Positions 29,121 to 52,735 of a stretch of 64,000 nucleotides of DNA are shown piece after piece. The notes beneath the pieces were generated by a model that was not told the DNA's origin, made no database searches, and was given only the letters and a program-made list of their open reading frames with translations. The DNA lies in contig NZ_CP053085.1 of assembly GCF_013004105.1 (NCBI RefSeq), forward strand, positions 3,348,001 to 3,412,000, read 5' to 3'. The stretch comes from Gemmatimonas groenlandica (GTDB taxonomy: Bacteria; Gemmatimonadota; Gemmatimonadetes; Gemmatimonadales; Gemmatimonadaceae). A program made the position numbers and the translations under genes. The stretch's first letter is position 1. Every line of letters starts with the position of its first letter.

Positions 29121-29240
29121 AAACCCCTCTGCGTTCTCTGCGCCCTCTGCGCCTCCGCGTGATCAGGTCCCCCGCGTCGGGCCGTACGAGAACAGATCAC
29201 GCGGAGGGGCAGGGGGCGCAGAGTACGGAGAGGGGGCTTT
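29121..29240. repeat. Quasi-palindrome upstream of lipoprotein and glnN (inverted repeat 2)
   Basis: Within the 362-bp divergent spacer 29088-29449, the arm built from CTCTGCGTTCTCTGCGCC and CTCCGCGTGATC (29126-29164) is matched, inverted, by GATCACGCGGAGG and GGCGCAGAGTACGGAGAGG (29196-29235) around a loop of about 31 bases. A second small inverted repeat, GTTCGGT (29242-29248) with ACCGAAC (29275-29281), follows. Words of the CTCTGCG type recur as dispersed intergenic repeats in many phyla, to my recollection. Confidence 0.65.
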
Positions 29241-31672: not shown

Positions 31673-31684
31673 TCTAGTTGAACG

Positions 31685-31800
31685 GCCAACAGCTTAGGGG
31701 GCAGGGAGGAGGTTATCAGGATGGAGAAAGCAGGTAAACGGCGCCGCTGTCCTGTTTCCTCCTCCCTGACACCCTCCGCCCTGCCCCCTAAGCTGTTGGC
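31685..31800. repeat. Quasi-palindrome between glnN and ada (inverted repeat 3)
   Basis: The outer 22 bases are a perfect inverted repeat beginning GCCAACAGCTTAGGGGG and ending in its complement at 31779-31800; matching continues inward with gaps (GGAGG, TCAGG). The right arm contains the TAG stop (31788-31790) and last codons of ada. It probably works as a bidirectional terminator for the convergent glnN and ada genes. Confidence 0.8.
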
Positions 31801-32864
31801 AGTTGCTCTTCCCGCAACAACCTCTCCTTCCGCTCCAACCCCCACGCGTAGCCGCCCAGGCTGCCATCGGCGCGCACGACGCGATGACACGGCACCACCA
31901 TTGCCACCGGATTCGCACCGCAGGCCGTACCGACGGCGCGTACCGCCTTCGGTGCGCCGATGCGCGCGGCGAGCTCGGCATACGTGATCGTTTCGCCGCG
32001 CGGGATACGCTGCAGCTCGCGCCACACGCGTTGCTGAAACGCCGTACCACGGACATCGAGCGGCAGGGCGTGCGACAATGCCGCGCCGCTTGCCAAGGCG
32101 ACCACGCTCGCGCTGATGTCGCCAAGGGCCGCATCATCACGCACCAGATCCGCGGCGTGCAGCGCGTCCCGCAACGTCGCCTCGAGCGCGGCGGGATCGT
32201 CGCCCAGCACGACGCGATGCACGCCACGCGATGTCATCGCCACCAGGACGAAGCCGAGCGCGCACGGGACGATGGTGTAGAACACGGTCTCGCCGGCCGC
32301 GCCGCGGCGAAGCGATCCGGGAGACATGCCAAGGTGCGCCGCTGCCGCCGTGTAGGCGCTCGGCAGCGAGTCGAAGCCCGCGTCGAAGGCCGCGCTCGAC
32401 ACCGATTCGCTCGACGGCAGTGCGGCGCGTAGCCGTTCGCTGCGTTGCGCGCGTTGCCATTCGGCAGGCGTGCAGCCCACCAGACGCGTGAAGACCCGCT
32501 GCAGATGGGCCCGACTGACGTCGAGCGCGTCGGCGAGTTTCATGACCGTCATCGTATCATCCTCCATGAGGCTGATCGCTCGCACGACCAGCGGCGTGTG
32601 CATCGCATTGGCGCCCAACGCCGACGCGGACTCCGGCACGCAGCGCTTGCAGGCCCGGTAGCCGGCGGCGCGGGCGTCGTGGCCGCTCGCGTAGAATCGC
32701 ACGCGGTCCTCGCGAGGACGACGCGAGGGGCAGGACGGACGGCAGAAGATCTTGGTCGACGTCACCGCAAAGACGAAGCTGCCGTCCCACTGGCGATCGC
32801 GCTCGACCACCGCCCGCCAGCGAGGATCGATCGTTGCATCAGGAACAGAGTTCATCGGGGCCAT
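31788..32864 (-). CDS. ada: Bifunctional DNA alkylation-repair protein and regulator Ada
   Basis: A 358-residue protein close to E. coli Ada in length. The N-terminal methylphosphotriester acceptor domain has the zinc Cys set FCRPSCPSRRP (Cys41, Cys45) and YRACKRCVPE (Cys72, Cys75). An AraC-type helix-turn-helix follows (MKLADALDVSRAHLQRVFTR in part: LADALDVSRAHLQRVF). The C-terminal O6-alkylguanine transferase domain has the active-site MVVPCHRVVR. It removes methyl groups from DNA and activates repair genes when methylated. ATG 32864 is used; ATG 32855 is equally possible. Confidence 0.93.
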   Translation of the reverse strand: MAPMNSVPDATIDPRWRAVVERDRQWDGSFVFAVTSTKIFCRPSCPSRRPREDRVRFYASGHDARAAGYRACKRCVPESASALGANAMHTPLVVRAISLMEDDTMTVMKLADALDVSRAHLQRVFTRLVGCTPAEWQRAQRSERLRAALPSSESVSSAAFDAGFDSLPSAYTAAAAHLGMSPGSLRRGAAGETVFYTIVPCALGFVLVAMTSRGVHRVVLGDDPAALEATLRDALHAADLVRDDAALGDISASVVALASGAALSHALPLDVRGTAFQQRVWRELQRIPRGETITYAELAARIGAPKAVRAVGTACGANPVAMVVPCHRVVRADGSLGGYAWGLERKERLLREEQLPTA

Positions 32865-42413: not shown

Positions 42414-43388
42414 TTACGCGCTGGTGGGTCGGAACGGAGCGGGAGCCTCGGCGCTGAACAGCAGACGAGGCCCTCCGATAAGATCAATGCAATATGGGAC
42501 GGCCGCCCAGACCGCGCCGAGGCATTCCTCGATCGCCGCCGGCTTTCCCGGGAGATTGATGATCAGCGAGCTCCCGCGGGTGCCCGCCACCTGACGCGAC
42601 AGGATGGCCGTGGGAACTGTCTTCACGGACACGGCGCGCATCTGCTCCCCAAACCCCGGCAGCAGCCGGTCGCACACCGCGACGGTGGCCTCTGGCGTGA
42701 CATCCCGCGGCGACGGCCCGGTACCACCGGTGGTCACGATCAGGGCGCAGTGCAGGTCGTCGGCCAGTTCACGGAGCGCCGCCTCGATCAGTGGCTGCTC
42801 GTCGGGCACCAGCCGGTACACGGGCTCCCACGGCGACGCGATCCAGCGCGTCAGCACCGACTGGATCGCCGGGCCGGACTTGTCTTCGTAGACGCCCGAG
42901 GTGGCGCGATCGGAGATGGTGAGCACACCGACCACGGCTGGCAACGAAGGATGCGATGAGGGAAGCAATTTGGTGGCGAACGTGTGGGGGCTAGCGGAAG
43001 CGGCGCTGCGGCTAGCGAGTCTTCGGAAGACTACACGCTTTTGGTCCGGGCGACGACCGAACGTGAGGACCAGGCCGACCTCGTAGTTCGTGGCTTTGAG
43101 GTACCCGAGGAGCTGGCCGACATGCTCCAGCTCGACGGCGCGCGCCACTTTGCACTCGAGGACGACGAGGTCGTTGACGACCAAGTCGAGCCGCCCGCGC
43201 CCAATCACGCGCCCGCGGAAGGTCACCGCGACATCCACCTCACGTGCGACAGCGAACCCGGCATCGGCAAGGGCAATCACCATCGCCCGCTGGTAAATCA
43301 CCTCCGGATGCCCATGACGCAGCTCGTCATGCACCTCCCGAAACACCCGGAGAATCCCCGCCGTCACCTCGCCATGTAGTAAGCCCAT
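42414..43388 (-). CDS. GxxExxY domain fused to molybdopterin adenylyltransferase (Mog/MoaB) domain
   Basis: A 324-residue fusion. Residues 1-121 are a GxxExxY protein: MGLLHGEVTAGILRVFREVH, the name motif GHPEVIY (26-32) and GRLDLVVNDLVVLECKV with Asp68, Glu78 and Lys80 in the D-ExK spacing of PD-(D/E)XK nucleases. Residues 122-150 are a linker. Residues 151-324 are a complete Mog/MoaB domain (VVGVLTISDRATSGVYEDKSG, TTGGTGPSPRDVTPEAT, SLIINLPGKPAA), which adenylates molybdopterin in molybdenum-cofactor synthesis. ATG 43388 precedes the GxxExxY core; GTG 43418 would add ten residues. The linker is encoded by a repeat that recurs inverted upstream of the start. Confidence 0.85.
   Translation of the reverse strand: MGLLHGEVTAGILRVFREVHDELRHGHPEVIYQRAMVIALADAGFAVAREVDVAVTFRGRVIGRGRLDLVVNDLVVLECKVARAVELEHVGQLLGYLKATNYEVGLVLTFGRRPDQKRVVFRRLASRSAASASPHTFATKLLPSSHPSLPAVVGVLTISDRATSGVYEDKSGPAIQSVLTRWIASPWEPVYRLVPDEQPLIEAALRELADDLHCALIVTTGGTGPSPRDVTPEATVAVCDRLLPGFGEQMRAVSVKTVPTAILSRQVAGTRGSSLIINLPGKPAAIEECLGAVWAAVPYCIDLIGGPRLLFSAEAPAPFRPTSA
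42930..43006 (-). repeat. Dispersed repeat copy A (inside the fusion gene)
   Basis: In the minus-strand direction the copy runs CGGAAGC-like 5' part, CCCCCACACGTTCGCCACC core, then GCTTCCCTCATCGCATCC and CCGTGGTC. It encodes the linker SPHTFATKLLPSSHPSLP between the GxxExxY and Mog domains. Confidence 0.8.
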
Positions 43389-43434
43389 CCCCCACCATCG
43401 TCCCACCCCGTCACCCACCCGTCAGCCCCCCCCC

Positions 43435-43521
43435 GCCGGAAGCACCGCTCCCCCCCCCGCCCCCCACACGTTCGCCACCAAACAGCTTCCCCAGCGGCAT
43501 CCACCGTTCGCTGCCGTGGTC
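43435..43521 (+). repeat. Dispersed repeat copy B (divergent spacer)
   Basis: The copy begins CCGGAAGCACCGCTCC, has two C-runs around a single G, then CACACGTTCGCCACCAAA and GGCATCCACCGTTCG, ending CCGTGGTC. It lies in the 228-bp spacer between the fusion gene (-) and the DUF3108-like gene (+); little else is seen there. Confidence 0.85.
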
Positions 43522-43616
43522 CGGGTTTTCGTTGCACCTCCCCACACCCAAGCACGCGCCTGGCGTACGCTGAGACCATTAGCAATCCCCCACGCCAACC
43601 AGAGCCCCCGAGTCCC

Positions 43617-44339
43617 ATGCGCCTCACTCGCCTCGCCATCACCCTCGTTCTCGCGCCCCTCGCCGCCGCGTCCGCCCAATCCGCGGCCCCGCCCGTGTCT
43701 GCCCTGCGCGACCACATCGACCGCGCTCAGCTTCGCGCACAGACGGACTCCTTCGTGGTCCTTGTCCAGGGCGTCCCGCGCGGCTGGCAGCGCATCGGCA
43801 TGAGGCCCACCGCGAAGGGCTGGGAGCTGTTCGACGCGATCGCTATCGGCGCCATGGTCCAGCAATCATCGGCCATCACCCTCGACGTCGCGCTCAGCGA
43901 GACCGCGTTGCGGCAAAGCGGCGTCATGTCGGGACGCCCCATGACCATCGCGCTCGACTTTGCCAACGGACGCGTGCGCGGCACTGCCGACACACCGAGT
44001 AACGGTCCCTCGGGTGCCCTGTCTATCGATACCGCGGTGGCACCGACGGTCGTCGACGACAATGCCGTCACGCCGTTGCTCACCGCCCTCCGGTGGCGCG
44101 AGTCGCTCGACATTCGGTTTCCCGTGTTCACCAGCGGCAAGGCAACCATCGTCACGTATCGCCTTCGCGTGCTCGGGGCCGACACGGTCACCGTGCCAGC
44201 GGGCACCTTCGACAGCTGGCGTGCGGAGCTCGCGATCGGATCGTCCACCCTGTCGCTGCACATCACGCGCGCCGCGCCCTATCGCATCCTGCGCATGACG
44301 TCGGTGGGTACGCCCTTCGATATCCAGTTGGCGAAGTAG
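43617..44339 (+). CDS. Secreted DUF3108-like protein
   Basis: A 240-residue protein with a signal peptide (LAITLVLAPLAAASAQ). The C-terminal half, with TYRLRVLGADTVTVPAGTFDSWRAEL, resembles DUF3108, a beta-rich periplasmic domain of unknown function in which VPAGTFD is recurrent. The first half has a related strand pattern. It is followed by the sensor kinase gene after 33 bp and may belong to that operon. Confidence 0.72.
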   Translation: MRLTRLAITLVLAPLAAASAQSAAPPVSALRDHIDRAQLRAQTDSFVVLVQGVPRGWQRIGMRPTAKGWELFDAIAIGAMVQQSSAITLDVALSETALRQSGVMSGRPMTIALDFANGRVRGTADTPSNGPSGALSIDTAVAPTVVDDNAVTPLLTALRWRESLDIRFPVFTSGKATIVTYRLRVLGADTVTVPAGTFDSWRAELAIGSSTLSLHITRAAPYRILRMTSVGTPFDIQLAK

Positions 44340-44372: not shown

Positions 44373-45482
44373 ATGCTCGCTGCGCCTTCCGCTGTCGCCA
44401 CACCCGGCACTCCCGTCAGCAAGCGTCCGTCGCGTCGCTGGCTGTGGCTCACGGCGCTGCTCTGCGGCGTCGGCGGACTCACACCGTTCGCGCAATCGCT
44501 CGAACTGCTCGGCATCAGTAAACCCGGGGGCCTCGCCCTTCAGTGGCAGGCGGTCACGGTAGTCGTGTGGGCCGCGCTCGGGCCGCGTATCGCCCATCGG
44601 TGGTCACTCACCGACTCCGAAGCGGGCGCACTCGCCGGACTTGGACTGCTCACCGTGACGGCCACTGCAGCGCACGCGACTATCGCGATACTACTGCTGC
44701 ACCCGAGCACCCCGTATAGCAGTACGTCGAACTGGATCATCGTCGCCCTCGGCGTCTTGCCGACGCACGCCGTCACCGCCGGCCTCATGTCGCTCGTGGG
44801 CAGCTGGACGAGCGCCCGACGACAGCGCGAGCGCGCCGCCGATCGCGAGGCCGTGTTGGCAGCACATGCGGTGCGCGCCGAGCTCGACGCACTGCGCACG
44901 AGACTGCAGCCACACTTTCTGCTGAACGCGCTCAATACCGTGACCGGACTCGCGCGATCGGGCAACGGCGAACGCGCCGCCGACGTCGCGGCGGATCTGG
45001 GCGAGCTGCTGCGTTTCGCGCTCACGGAATCGGGCGACGCCGTGTCGTTCGACGCCGAGCGAGAGATCGTCGAACGGTATCTCGCGATCGAGCAGGTGCG
45101 ACTCGGCGACCGACTGCGCGTTGAATGGCGCATCGAGGCCAGCGCGCGCACGACGCAGTTGCCGGCGTTGACATGGCAACCGCTCGTTGAGAACGCCATT
45201 CGCCACGGCATCGCGCAGCGCATTTCGCCGGGCACTCTCACGGTGTCCGCATCGCGTACGCAGCACGCCCTCACGCTCGTGGTCGATGCCGATGGCCCCG
45301 ACCACCAGACAGCGCCAACCCCCGAACCGTTCGGCGGACTCGGCATCGGGCTTTCGACGCTACGCCGACGGCTCGCGCTGTTGTACGACGAGCGCGCCAC
45401 GCTCACCATGACGGGCCGGCCGGGAGGTACGCGCGTCGAGCTCACGCTACCGATCACGTCGACGCGATCGGACCTCACATGA
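44373..45482 (+). CDS. LytS-type membrane sensor histidine kinase
   Basis: A 369-residue inner-membrane kinase. Four hydrophobic helices (about 22-145) precede the His_kinase domain with LRTRLQPHFLLNALNTV, where His181 is the phosphorylation site, and an ATPase region with PALTWQPLVENAIRHGIAQ and FGGLGIGLSTLRRRL. This layout is that of LytS/YehU sensors. Its stop overlaps the LytTR regulator gene (ATGA), its evident partner. The signal is unknown. Confidence 0.9.
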   Translation: MLAAPSAVATPGTPVSKRPSRRWLWLTALLCGVGGLTPFAQSLELLGISKPGGLALQWQAVTVVVWAALGPRIAHRWSLTDSEAGALAGLGLLTVTATAAHATIAILLLHPSTPYSSTSNWIIVALGVLPTHAVTAGLMSLVGSWTSARRQRERAADREAVLAAHAVRAELDALRTRLQPHFLLNALNTVTGLARSGNGERAADVAADLGELLRFALTESGDAVSFDAEREIVERYLAIEQVRLGDRLRVEWRIEASARTTQLPALTWQPLVENAIRHGIAQRISPGTLTVSASRTQHALTLVVDADGPDHQTAPTPEPFGGLGIGLSTLRRRLALLYDERATLTMTGRPGGTRVELTLPITSTRSDLT

Positions 45483-46177
45483 GCCGACTCCGCATTGTCG
45501 TCGCCGACGACGAACCGATCGCCGCTGCATCGCTCGCCGCCGAGTTGCAGCGACTCGACTGCGAGGTAGTCGCGATCTGCGCCAACGGCGAGAGCGCCAT
45601 CGCGCGCTGCGCGAGCTTGCTACCCGACGCCTGCTTCACCGATGTCGCCATGCCCGAACGCGATGGCCTCGCGGTGGCGCGTGCCCTTCGCGAAGCCGCC
45701 CCGGGTGTCCGTGTGGTGTTCGTGAGCGCCCACCCGCACTTCGCGATCGAAGCCTACGGGGCGGATGTCGTCGACTTCGTGCTGAAGCCGATCCGTCGCG
45801 CCCGACTTGCCGACGCCGTCGATCGCCTTCGCCGCGCGCTCAGCGCCGCCGACCACGACGATCGCATCCTCGTCACCGAGCACGGCAGCGTGCACGTCCT
45901 GGCGATCCGCGAGATCGAGTGGGTGCAAGCCGACGGGTACAACCTCTGGCTCCACACCGCCAAGCGTGCCTGGCTGATCCGCGAGCGCATGCACCGCATG
46001 GAAGCACGCCTGCAATCAGTCGGCTTCCTGAGAGTACATCGCTCGGCCCTGGTGCGCCTCAGCGCCATTCAATCCATCGAGCAGGCCGAGCACACCGAGC
46101 CCACGCTCGTCTTGCGATCCGGCGCCAAAGTGAAAGCCGCCCGCGACCGCCTCAACGACATCCGCAACGCCCTCTAG
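45479..46177 (+). CDS. LytTR-family response regulator
   Basis: A 232-residue DNA-binding response regulator. The receiver domain has the acidic pocket VVADDEP, phosphoacceptor Asp55 in CFTDVAMPERDG and Lys in FVLKPI. The C-terminal LytTR domain has EIEWVQADGYNLWLH and GFLRVHRSALVRLSAIQ. It probably acts with the overlapping LytS-type kinase. A dispersed repeat begins nine bases after the stop. Confidence 0.93.
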   Translation: MSRLRIVVADDEPIAAASLAAELQRLDCEVVAICANGESAIARCASLLPDACFTDVAMPERDGLAVARALREAAPGVRVVFVSAHPHFAIEAYGADVVDFVLKPIRRARLADAVDRLRRALSAADHDDRILVTEHGSVHVLAIREIEWVQADGYNLWLHTAKRAWLIRERMHRMEARLQSVGFLRVHRSALVRLSAIQSIEQAEHTEPTLVLRSGAKVKAARDRLNDIRNAL

Positions 46178-46185
46178 CCCCCCGT

Positions 46186-46276
46186 CGGAAGCACCGCAGC
46201 CGGAAGCACCGCTCCCCCCCCCCCCACACACATTCCCCACCAAACCACTTCCCTATCGGCATCCACCGTTCGCATC
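46186..46276 (+). repeat. Dispersed repeat copy C (solo)
   Basis: The copy begins with a small direct duplication (CGGAAGCACCGC twice), then a run of twelve C, then ACACATTCCCCACCAAACCA and CGGCATCCACCGTTCG. It matches copy B nearly throughout. Its right part contains the stop codon and last codons (GGCR) of the convergent phosphatase gene. Confidence 0.85.
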
Positions 46277-46816
46277 CGCGGCCCCGTAGTGTGCCACCAC
46301 GACCTGCGCCGCCTTGCCGTCAGCACCAGGCGTGATCACGAACATCGTCGCATAGCTCGAATCGCAGAGATCCGGCAACTTGGGCCCGCCAAGCGCCGTC
46401 ACAATCGCCGGCACGGTATTGCTGTGCCCGACCACGAGCACCACACCGGTCGCCTTGCGCACCGCCGCCGCCACGTCGGCGATGTGCTTCGTACCACCAC
46501 TGATGGTGATCACCGTAGGAACGACACCGGTCTTCCCGGCAACCACCGCTGCCGTTTCCGCGGTCCGCTTGAGCGACGTCACAATGATCGCGTTCGGCGT
46601 CGTCATCGCCAGCGCGTCGGCCAATGCCTGCGCGCGCGCCTTGCCGGCCTCACTCAGTGACGGATCGCTGCCGCCCTCGGTCGACTTCTCACCGTGGCGT
46701 ACCAGCACGACCAGCGATGGTTGCGCTACGAGATCGCGCGGCGCGAACGAAGCCGTCGCGAGCAGGAAGCCAAGCATACCGACTGCAACACTGCTCCACG
46801 ACGATCTCGTTTGCAT
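46253..46816 (-). CDS. Secreted histidine phosphatase family protein (SixA-like)
   Basis: A 187-residue protein with a signal peptide (VAVGMLGFLLATASFAP). The catalytic motif LVVLVRHGEKS, a second Arg in SLKRTAET and His in VVVGHSNTVPAIV form the phosphate pocket of the histidine phosphatase superfamily. The compact size resembles SixA, but export implies a periplasmic phosphoester substrate. Its last residues (DANGGCR) and stop are encoded by dispersed repeat copy C, so the C-terminus may be repeat-derived. Confidence 0.85.
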   Translation of the reverse strand: MQTRSSWSSVAVGMLGFLLATASFAPRDLVAQPSLVVLVRHGEKSTEGGSDPSLSEAGKARAQALADALAMTTPNAIIVTSLKRTAETAAVVAGKTGVVPTVITISGGTKHIADVAAAVRKATGVVLVVGHSNTVPAIVTALGGPKLPDLCDSSYATMFVITPGADGKAAQVVVAHYGAADANGGCR

Positions 46817-52565: not shown

Positions 52566-52735
52566 ATGGTACGGCAACAGCAAAAAGCAACAGCCTGAAC
52601 ACGGAGACCACAGAGTACGCCGAACAAACACAGATAAGCAAAAAGCGCTGTTGGCCTATCGGTGTTGTTGTCCGTGCAATCAATGGTCTCCGTGTTCAGG
52701 CTGTTGCGGTTGCCGTTGCTGCTGCGTGTCGCCCG
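52566..52735. repeat. Quasi-palindrome overlapping the end of the GNAT gene (inverted repeat 4)
   Basis: A perfect 24-base inverted repeat pairs 52587-52610 (core CAGCCTGAACACGGAGACC) with 52684-52707, and similarity extends outward through CAACAGC/GTTGCTG words. The right arm encodes the last residues of the GNAT protein. The 70-base loop contains ACAGAG and AACACAG words of the kind found in dispersed intergenic repeats. Confidence 0.8.

Follow-up and report, generated by a model that had tools for sequence, protein, structure and literature searches.

A palindromic repeat at the 3' end of a SixA-like phosphatase gene is probably the outer end of a mobile element with a GxxExxY gene

QMITE1 and QMITE2 of Coxiella burnetii are MITE-like palindromes that lie over gene 3' ends; in one strain QMITEs presumably supply 33 C-terminal residues to EnhC (cited sections of PMC5896051). 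Rickettsia palindromic elements (RPEs), which are approximately 150 bp long, are described in the cited part of PMC10969869 as in-frame inserts in open reading frames that turn into coding sequence of the host gene. Dispersed palindromes with a companion gene are known from the REPIN-RAYT systems (excerpts of PMC8049555 and PMC3686654), and the intervening sequences of 23S rRNA with S23p have an open reading frame inside a small element that has been termed selfish (PMC4990558, in part). GxxExxY is mentioned in PMC8934634, not in connection with palindromes in the portion cited, and a pairing of GxxExxY or PDDEXK_3 genes with palindromes was not found in the literature searched, which comprised one library queried with limited wording.

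We analyzed a stretch of 64,000 nucleotides (the window), positions 3348001 to 3412000 of the 5.18-Mb single-contig genome of Gemmatimonas groenlandica, in which one copy of a palindromic repeat, copy C, lies over the end of a SixA-like phosphatase gene. The repeat is an element separate from the QMITEs, for which the cited sections mention neither a GxxExxY gene nor cargo between direct copies. It differs from the RPEs in that gene ends coincide with its outer end, which in many cases supplies a stop codon. Unlike the rRNA intervening sequences, the element is located in a junction between protein genes, and its open frame belongs to a protein family other than S23p. RAYTs are HUH/Y1 proteins, whereas the companion here is a PF13366 protein of the PD-(D/E)XK type, and the palindromes are approximately 180 to 260 bp long. 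Given the QMITE and Rickettsia precedents, the change in the phosphatase tail described below is a known kind of event.

Copies A (42925 to 43009, plus strand) and B (43429 to 43522, minus strand) are inverted around the GxxExxY gene, with 73% identity over 85 nt in the window self-comparison (inverted repeat I1), and copy C (46194 to 46284, minus strand) is direct relative to B. The initial annotation had described C as resembling B over most of its length, as starting with a 12-base duplication, and as containing twelve consecutive C, and all three descriptions were borne out. C and B are 85% identical over 88 bp (query positions 22 to 107 of 113; E value of 1.1e-21), or 83% over 71 nt when ungapped; CGGAAGCACCGC occurs as exact 12-mer matches at 46186 and 46201, with 15 bp between starts (46186 to 46212, plus strand), and once more near B, at 43437; and the run of C lies at 46214 to 46225 (plus strand). 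Relative to the interval originally given for C, 46186 to 46276, the full-length repeat runs slightly further, from 46194 to 46284. Compared with the corresponding locus of a related genome, G006, B and C each span the entire left inverted repeat (IRL), with 90.4% identity over 94 columns for B and 84.6% over 91 nt for C, while A aligns to the right inverted repeat (IRR) and its outer end enters the MogA frame. Since B is nearer to the G006 IRL (90%) than to C (85%), B and C are not a fresh duplication. In the alignments B runs on into the inner flank beside the GxxExxY gene and C runs on into the phosphatase, so that the outer end of C lies in the phosphatase tail; its inner end adjoins the stop of a LytTR regulator gene. 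The regulator stop ends at 46177 and the phosphatase stop is at 46253, and the run of C is located between these convergent stops, where variation in its length would leave both proteins unchanged.

The phosphatase gene (46253 to 46816, minus strand), whose last codons are inside C, matches PF00300 with 53.8 bits and scores 22.3 bits against a cut-off of 74.5 for the NCBIfam SixA equivalog; the protein is thus a member of the histidine phosphatase superfamily, for which "SixA-like" is a loose label. It was present in 27 of the 30 genomes of our genus search, the window genome included, and its 3' end was read at 27 loci. In five relatives no repeat follows the gene, and the protein ends in ..CAGMVAK (G024, G026, and G027) or ..CTGMVAK (G021 and G022). 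MogA is found on the same contig approximately 160 bp past the phosphatase stop in G021, G022, G026, and G027, which we refer to as the empty allele; the G024 contig stops short of MogA, and its phosphatase 3' flank has no repeat. Other genomes have further tail variants, each with a near-terminal cysteine. The ending DANGGCR reported for the window gene was confirmed at 46256 to 46276, followed by TAG at 46253 to 46255 (minus strand), and it occurs at 0 of the 24 repeat-free phosphatase loci, so the result that would have contradicted the initial annotation was not obtained.

In G003 and G006, the phosphatase tail is ..ADAKGGC and a repeat starts 2 or 3 bases past the stop. In G006 the phosphatase is followed by the left inverted repeat, GxxExxY, the right inverted repeat, and MogA, in that order; the two inverted repeats pair over 86 nt at 81%, and the outer ends of the element are GGACCACGG..CCGTGGTCC. 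G003 has the left repeat and the GxxExxY gene, inside which the contig breaks off. The order in the window is that of G006, but with the left repeat doubled (C and B) and 2.7 kb between the copies. That two separate metagenome-assembled genomes (MAGs) have the single-repeat arrangement lowers the likelihood of a collapsed assembly, although neither MAG is complete (70% for G003 and 57% for G006). It had been noted that C has no GxxExxY gene beside it. This holds for the window, but at the corresponding phosphatase end of G003 and G006 the repeat adjoins such a gene. A single element at the phosphatase/MogA junction, with C as its outer end, is a better fit than the separate solo insertion first suggested.

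The distance from the shared phosphatase codons to the repeat core is 67 bases in G003 and G006 and 35 in the window, a difference of 32. The G003 tail reads GAT GCC AAG GGT GGA TGC TGA TA, after which comes the canonical repeat end; the frame of the window reads GAT GCG AAC GGT GGA TGC CGA TAG and continues into the core of the repeat. Compared with the G003 tail, that of the window has differences at 3 of 27 bases, and compared with the G006 tail at 4 of 27; from B it differs at 2 of 26 bases and from the G003 repeat at 4 of 26. Each of the last codons may come from either the repeat or the old tail, and a chimera of both is likely, given that in G003 and G006 KGGC and its stop lie immediately beyond the canonical repeat end, that the window tail is 32 bp shorter, and that it closely matches both sources. 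Deletion between imperfect direct repeats would be the simplest account of such a chimeric product. Two cysteines are kept at all 27 phosphatase loci, including that of the window, one in the motif LPD[IL]C and one near the end. They are 37 residues apart at most loci, 38 at one, 42 at two, and 35 in the three element-bearing alleles. With the near-terminal cysteine kept in the new tail, the altered protein would retain its probable disulfide partner. The alleles thus offer a comparison in which a mobile palindrome appears to rewrite the end of a protein while a conserved cysteine stays.

C is separated from B by a 2.7-kb operon whose genes encode a DUF3108 protein (43617 to 44339; PF11306), a histidine kinase (44373 to 45482; PF06580 and PF02518), and a LytTR response regulator (45479 to 46177; PF00072 and PF04397), all on the plus strand, with the stop of the last gene abutting the inner end of C. 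The identical three-gene order was found in G002 and G008 (loci L067 and L068) at 47 to 60% identity. No kinase match above 41% was present in the seven near relatives searched (G003, G006, G021, G022, G024, G026, and G027). The operon could nonetheless be older and have been lost in other genomes.

A tree of two flanking genes (2052 columns) placed G021 and G022 outside with full support. The window, G026, G003 with G006, and G024 with G027 were not resolved (supports of 50 to 54; 54 for the window with G026 and 50 to 51 at the other deep nodes), and the window is 86 to 87% identical to G003, G006, G026, and G024. A clade of the window, G003, and G006 received no support from this tree. The branching would be compatible with a single common insertion, with exchange among lineages, or with loss from G026, G024, and G027. 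The empty allele is probably ancestral, since it is found in G021 and G022 and the ..GMVAK tail is shared.

From these comparisons we conclude, with a probability of roughly 0.8, that C is the outer IRL of an IRL-GxxExxY-IRR mobile element inserted between the phosphatase and MogA genes and later parted from its GxxExxY gene by the operon. A small element of this structure would have inserted at the phosphatase/MogA junction and replaced the last phosphatase codons and approximately 160 bp of intergenic DNA; the alleles are observed, and the direction assumes that the empty one is ancestral. In the window lineage the resident repeat would have recombined with a second copy of the family that travelled with the operon, which would account for the observed arrangement, and B would have kept the GxxExxY gene while C remained with the phosphatase. 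If the longer tail came first, the 32-bp difference would reflect shortening in the window, as a result of which the phosphatase now stops inside the repeat.

A 21-mer of the repeat core had 20 matches in the window genome, compared with 1 for the reversed-pattern control. We assigned 18 of the 20 to 11 loci, which are referred to by E numbers; the matches at 3352786 and 3254790 have no arms, look like chance, and were dropped. There were 14 matches in G003, 13 in G006, and 0 to 5 in the other 27 genomes, with 0 to 6 for reversed-pattern controls over the 30 genomes. The 21-mer was found with one mismatch in G026 and in G024, which extends the family beyond the three genomes. Core arms are paired 85 to 120 bp apart at E1, E2, E3, E6, and E8, which are full palindromes, and E1, the only full palindrome folded, folds better than shuffled sequences (z of -3.26). 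As in MITEs, the repeats have terminal inverted ends, are short, and occur in multiple copies (11 loci in the window genome), and their insertion can be read from empty sites, provided that the polarity is as we suppose. At E6, the gap between the flanks is 231 bp in G006 and 309 bp in G003, versus 61 to 77 bp in G021, G022, G026, and G028; in G024 and G027 the flanks are separated by 2.3 and 1.6 kb of other DNA, respectively, so that these are not clean empty sites. At E8, the gap is 260 bp in G003 and G006, versus 70 to 111 bp in all six outgroups. Inspection by eye of the aligned empty and filled sites at E6 and E8 revealed no target-site duplication. A MITE would be expected to share its ends with a parent transposase; the GxxExxY gene is the sole gene found between such inverted ends.

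Gene ends coincide with the outermost 27 bp of the palindrome (approximately GGCCACGGTNNNNAACGTGTGATTTCC), with gene calls around the palindromes based on third-position composition. A stop codon lies within these 27 bp at E2, E3, E8, E9, and E10, and likewise, in altered form, at the phosphatase; it is adjacent to the palindrome at E1 and E6, and no such overlap was seen at E5, E7, and E11. The C-terminus of the neighboring gene is changed at three of the four sites with an empty allele that was read, namely, the phosphatase, E8, and E10. The E8 neighbor ends in CKEWHG.. without the insertion and in CKEWHRGGNRA (window), CKEWRHGRNRGHGGERG (G003), or CKEWRRGGQRGHGGERA (G006) immediately before the stop. 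The E10 neighbor ends in ..REIADANL in G026, G024, and contig C1 of G003, versus ..MAAADATV in contig C108 of G003 and in G006 and ..YADANPGAVANV in the window; the G021 tail, a single residue apparently in the wrong frame, was left out. The tail of the E6 neighbor, ..ATG, is unaltered. With three of four sites changed, the suggestion in the initial annotation that these repeats reshape proteins at gene ends holds in general but has the precedents named above. More broadly, the family appears to comprise palindromic MITE-like insertions located at gene ends, many of them with a stop in the outer 27 bp. Targeting may account for these positions, and so may selection against insertion within genes. 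Resemblance of the empty site to the element ends was clear at E9/E10, where 0 of 185 and 0 of 133 control windows reached the same score. It was weak at the phosphatase (41 of 295 and 34 of 691) and at E6 (16 of 237 and 18 of 231), and absent at E8 (218 of 233 and 36 of 148). Through an error, the end sequence E10_R duplicated E9_R; the E9/E10 comparison excluded both, and each of the other three comparisons included the sequence two times.

In the window genome, a 231-amino-acid open frame (gene231) lies between E9 and E10, which are direct copies. G003 and G006 have a single palindrome between the same two neighbors and no gene231, and G021, G022, G024, G026, and G028 have no palindrome at this site, where the matching pieces are 8 to 48 bp apart. 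The neighbor genes were confirmed by tblastn in G003, G006, G021, G024, and G026; G027 had no match at the site. The phosphatase and E9/E10 loci therefore have the same set of states: empty, one palindrome, and palindrome-gene-palindrome. These are two cases in which extra genes lie between direct palindrome copies where relatives have a single copy. G003 has both an empty (C1:41140-42166) and an occupied (C108) version of the E9/E10 locus, which reflects either a paralogue or a mixed MAG, and the empty gene pair is likewise present twice in G026 (C26 and C176).

The body of the GxxExxY (PDDEXK_3) gene between B and A is located at 43035 to 43367 (minus strand). Its product scores above the curated cut-offs of both families, with 93.1 bits versus 35 for TIGR04256 and 93.9 bits versus 22 for PF13366, and neither family description names a function. 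The gene is part of a 334-amino-acid open frame (42414 to 43418, minus strand) that comprises GxxExxY, the translated IRR, and MogA (molybdopterin adenylyltransferase), as assigned by family matches; in G006, unlike in the window, a TAG closes GxxExxY. The window frame may represent a naturally fused protein in which a nuclease-like domain is joined to MogA; alternatively, MogA may start inside the repeat, the end of which offers an in-frame GTG as a candidate start codon. Residues G19, E22, Y25, D61, E71, and K73, which make up G-x-x-E-x-x-Y and D..ExK, are invariant in all 31 aligned sequences (the window and 30 loci chosen from 70; L193 was dropped for a stop codon). The AlphaFold2 model had a mean pLDDT of 92.5. 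Its best PDB match had an E value of 0.024 (none was at or below 0.001), and the weak best matches include nucleases of what we take to be the restriction-enzyme-like fold.

The window genome has six PF13366 genes. Together with 29 further loci, they form 35 genus loci, the higher-scoring part of 85 matches; these loci are not independent and fall into 15 syntenic groups. An inverted repeat was found within 300 bp of the GxxExxY gene at 21 of the 35 loci and in 11 of the 15 syntenic groups (19 of 35 loci with a stricter zone), compared with 2 of 27 phosphatase loci, one of which is the present element, and 0 of 30 kinase loci. This occurrence of GxxExxY genes beside palindromes and the cargo sandwiches are what is new here. 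The palindromes are of more than one family. That on the 3' side of GxxExxY gene L053 matched 36 times, counting both strands, at 20 places including its own; a palindrome of this different family matches at 52583 to 52713 in the window and is not part of the C element. A palindrome at 29124 to 29235 (inverted repeat I3), likewise not part of the C element, resembles the one on the 3' side of GxxExxY gene L055 (89% over 38 nt). Of 70 loci of GxxExxY relatives, two of which are G006 and G003 themselves, an inverted repeat lay close to the gene in 18, and in 13 the arms were on either side of it; at 18 loci an inverted repeat also occurred elsewhere in 391 kb. The enrichment near GxxExxY genes is weaker outside the genus than within it.

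The role of GxxExxY in the following is suggested by its adjacency to palindromes and by its predicted fold. Most likely, the protein, with its D..ExK fold residues, would process these palindromes in trans, as RAYTs do for REPINs. As a tentative and broader proposal, GxxExxY proteins throughout bacteria could be dedicated to driving palindromic MITE-like families, in a pairing that would parallel RAYT-REPIN with a protein of the PD-(D/E)XK type and in which each gene has its own family; the palindromes might also serve as landing sites for cargo, which would end up between direct copies at gene ends. This would give GxxExxY, which has no function in the libraries consulted, a testable role. 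That the repeats are inert portable homology, with DNA moved by homologous recombination alone and GxxExxY a passenger like other cargo, seems to us rather doubtful. Unrelated cargo between direct copies (the operon and gene231), the lack of a visible target-site duplication, and a flanking-gene tree that allows exchange between lineages all agree with it, but it leaves unexplained both the filling of empty sites and the frequency of inverted repeats near GxxExxY genes relative to kinase loci. Because the palindromes lie at gene 3' ends and the window genome has an integron integrase (TIGR02249, 441.9 bits versus a cut-off of 265; G000:C1:4063730-4064671, L316), we also considered them as integron attC sites, with cassettes of a gene and its 3' palindrome inserted in tandem by the integrase. 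Sites of the attC type have complementary R'' RYYYAAC and R' GTTRRRY boxes. The same-strand array E1-E2-E3 with intervening genes and the extra genes flanked by direct copies at two loci would suit this explanation, but a simple motif scan found such boxes in 0 of 10 elements and no attC-like array in the 26 kb around the integrase, and the elements are dispersed, one of them with a gene between two opposed arms. We regard it as highly improbable and rejected it on the absence of the boxes.

For C itself, the 75 bp that it occupies between two convergent stops would suit a two-way transcription terminator retained for function. Its folding was no better than that of shuffled sequences on either strand (z of 0.20 and -0.20), in contrast to E1, and repeat-free orthologues have a different sequence there; such a role is unlikely, and it was set aside for lack of a fold signal. 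An independent insertion of a solo repeat at the phosphatase 3' end would be in line with loci of the window genome that have a single core match, such as E5, with the lack of an inverted partner adjacent to C, and with a tree in which the occupied genomes do not form a resolved clade. It would require two insertions at one junction. Moreover, GxxExxY is attached to the repeat that G003 and G006 have at this phosphatase end, and B has its inner flank in common with that repeat; an independent insertion is very unlikely.

Further palindromic arrangements were observed. The window contains a 124-bp palindrome at 31681 to 31804 (82% complementary) that matches none of the 35 GxxExxY loci. E1 to E3 (L323, G000:C1:2921500-2928500) are three palindromes in the same orientation that form a cassette-like array without attC boxes. 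An endonuclease/phosphatase-type gene and a PIN-like gene, labels read from their translations, lie between them, and the genes of this array were not present in the stretches of relatives examined (L305 to L307). At one syntenic site in different genomes (L096 compared with L114 and L112), both flanks align and the GxxExxY regions do not at the DNA level, as if elements had been swapped at a single landing site. At L120 (G014:C69), a GxxExxY gene is located between opposed arrays of approximately 45-bp direct repeats, at 1161 to 1482 and 1907 to 2541 in the self-alignment.
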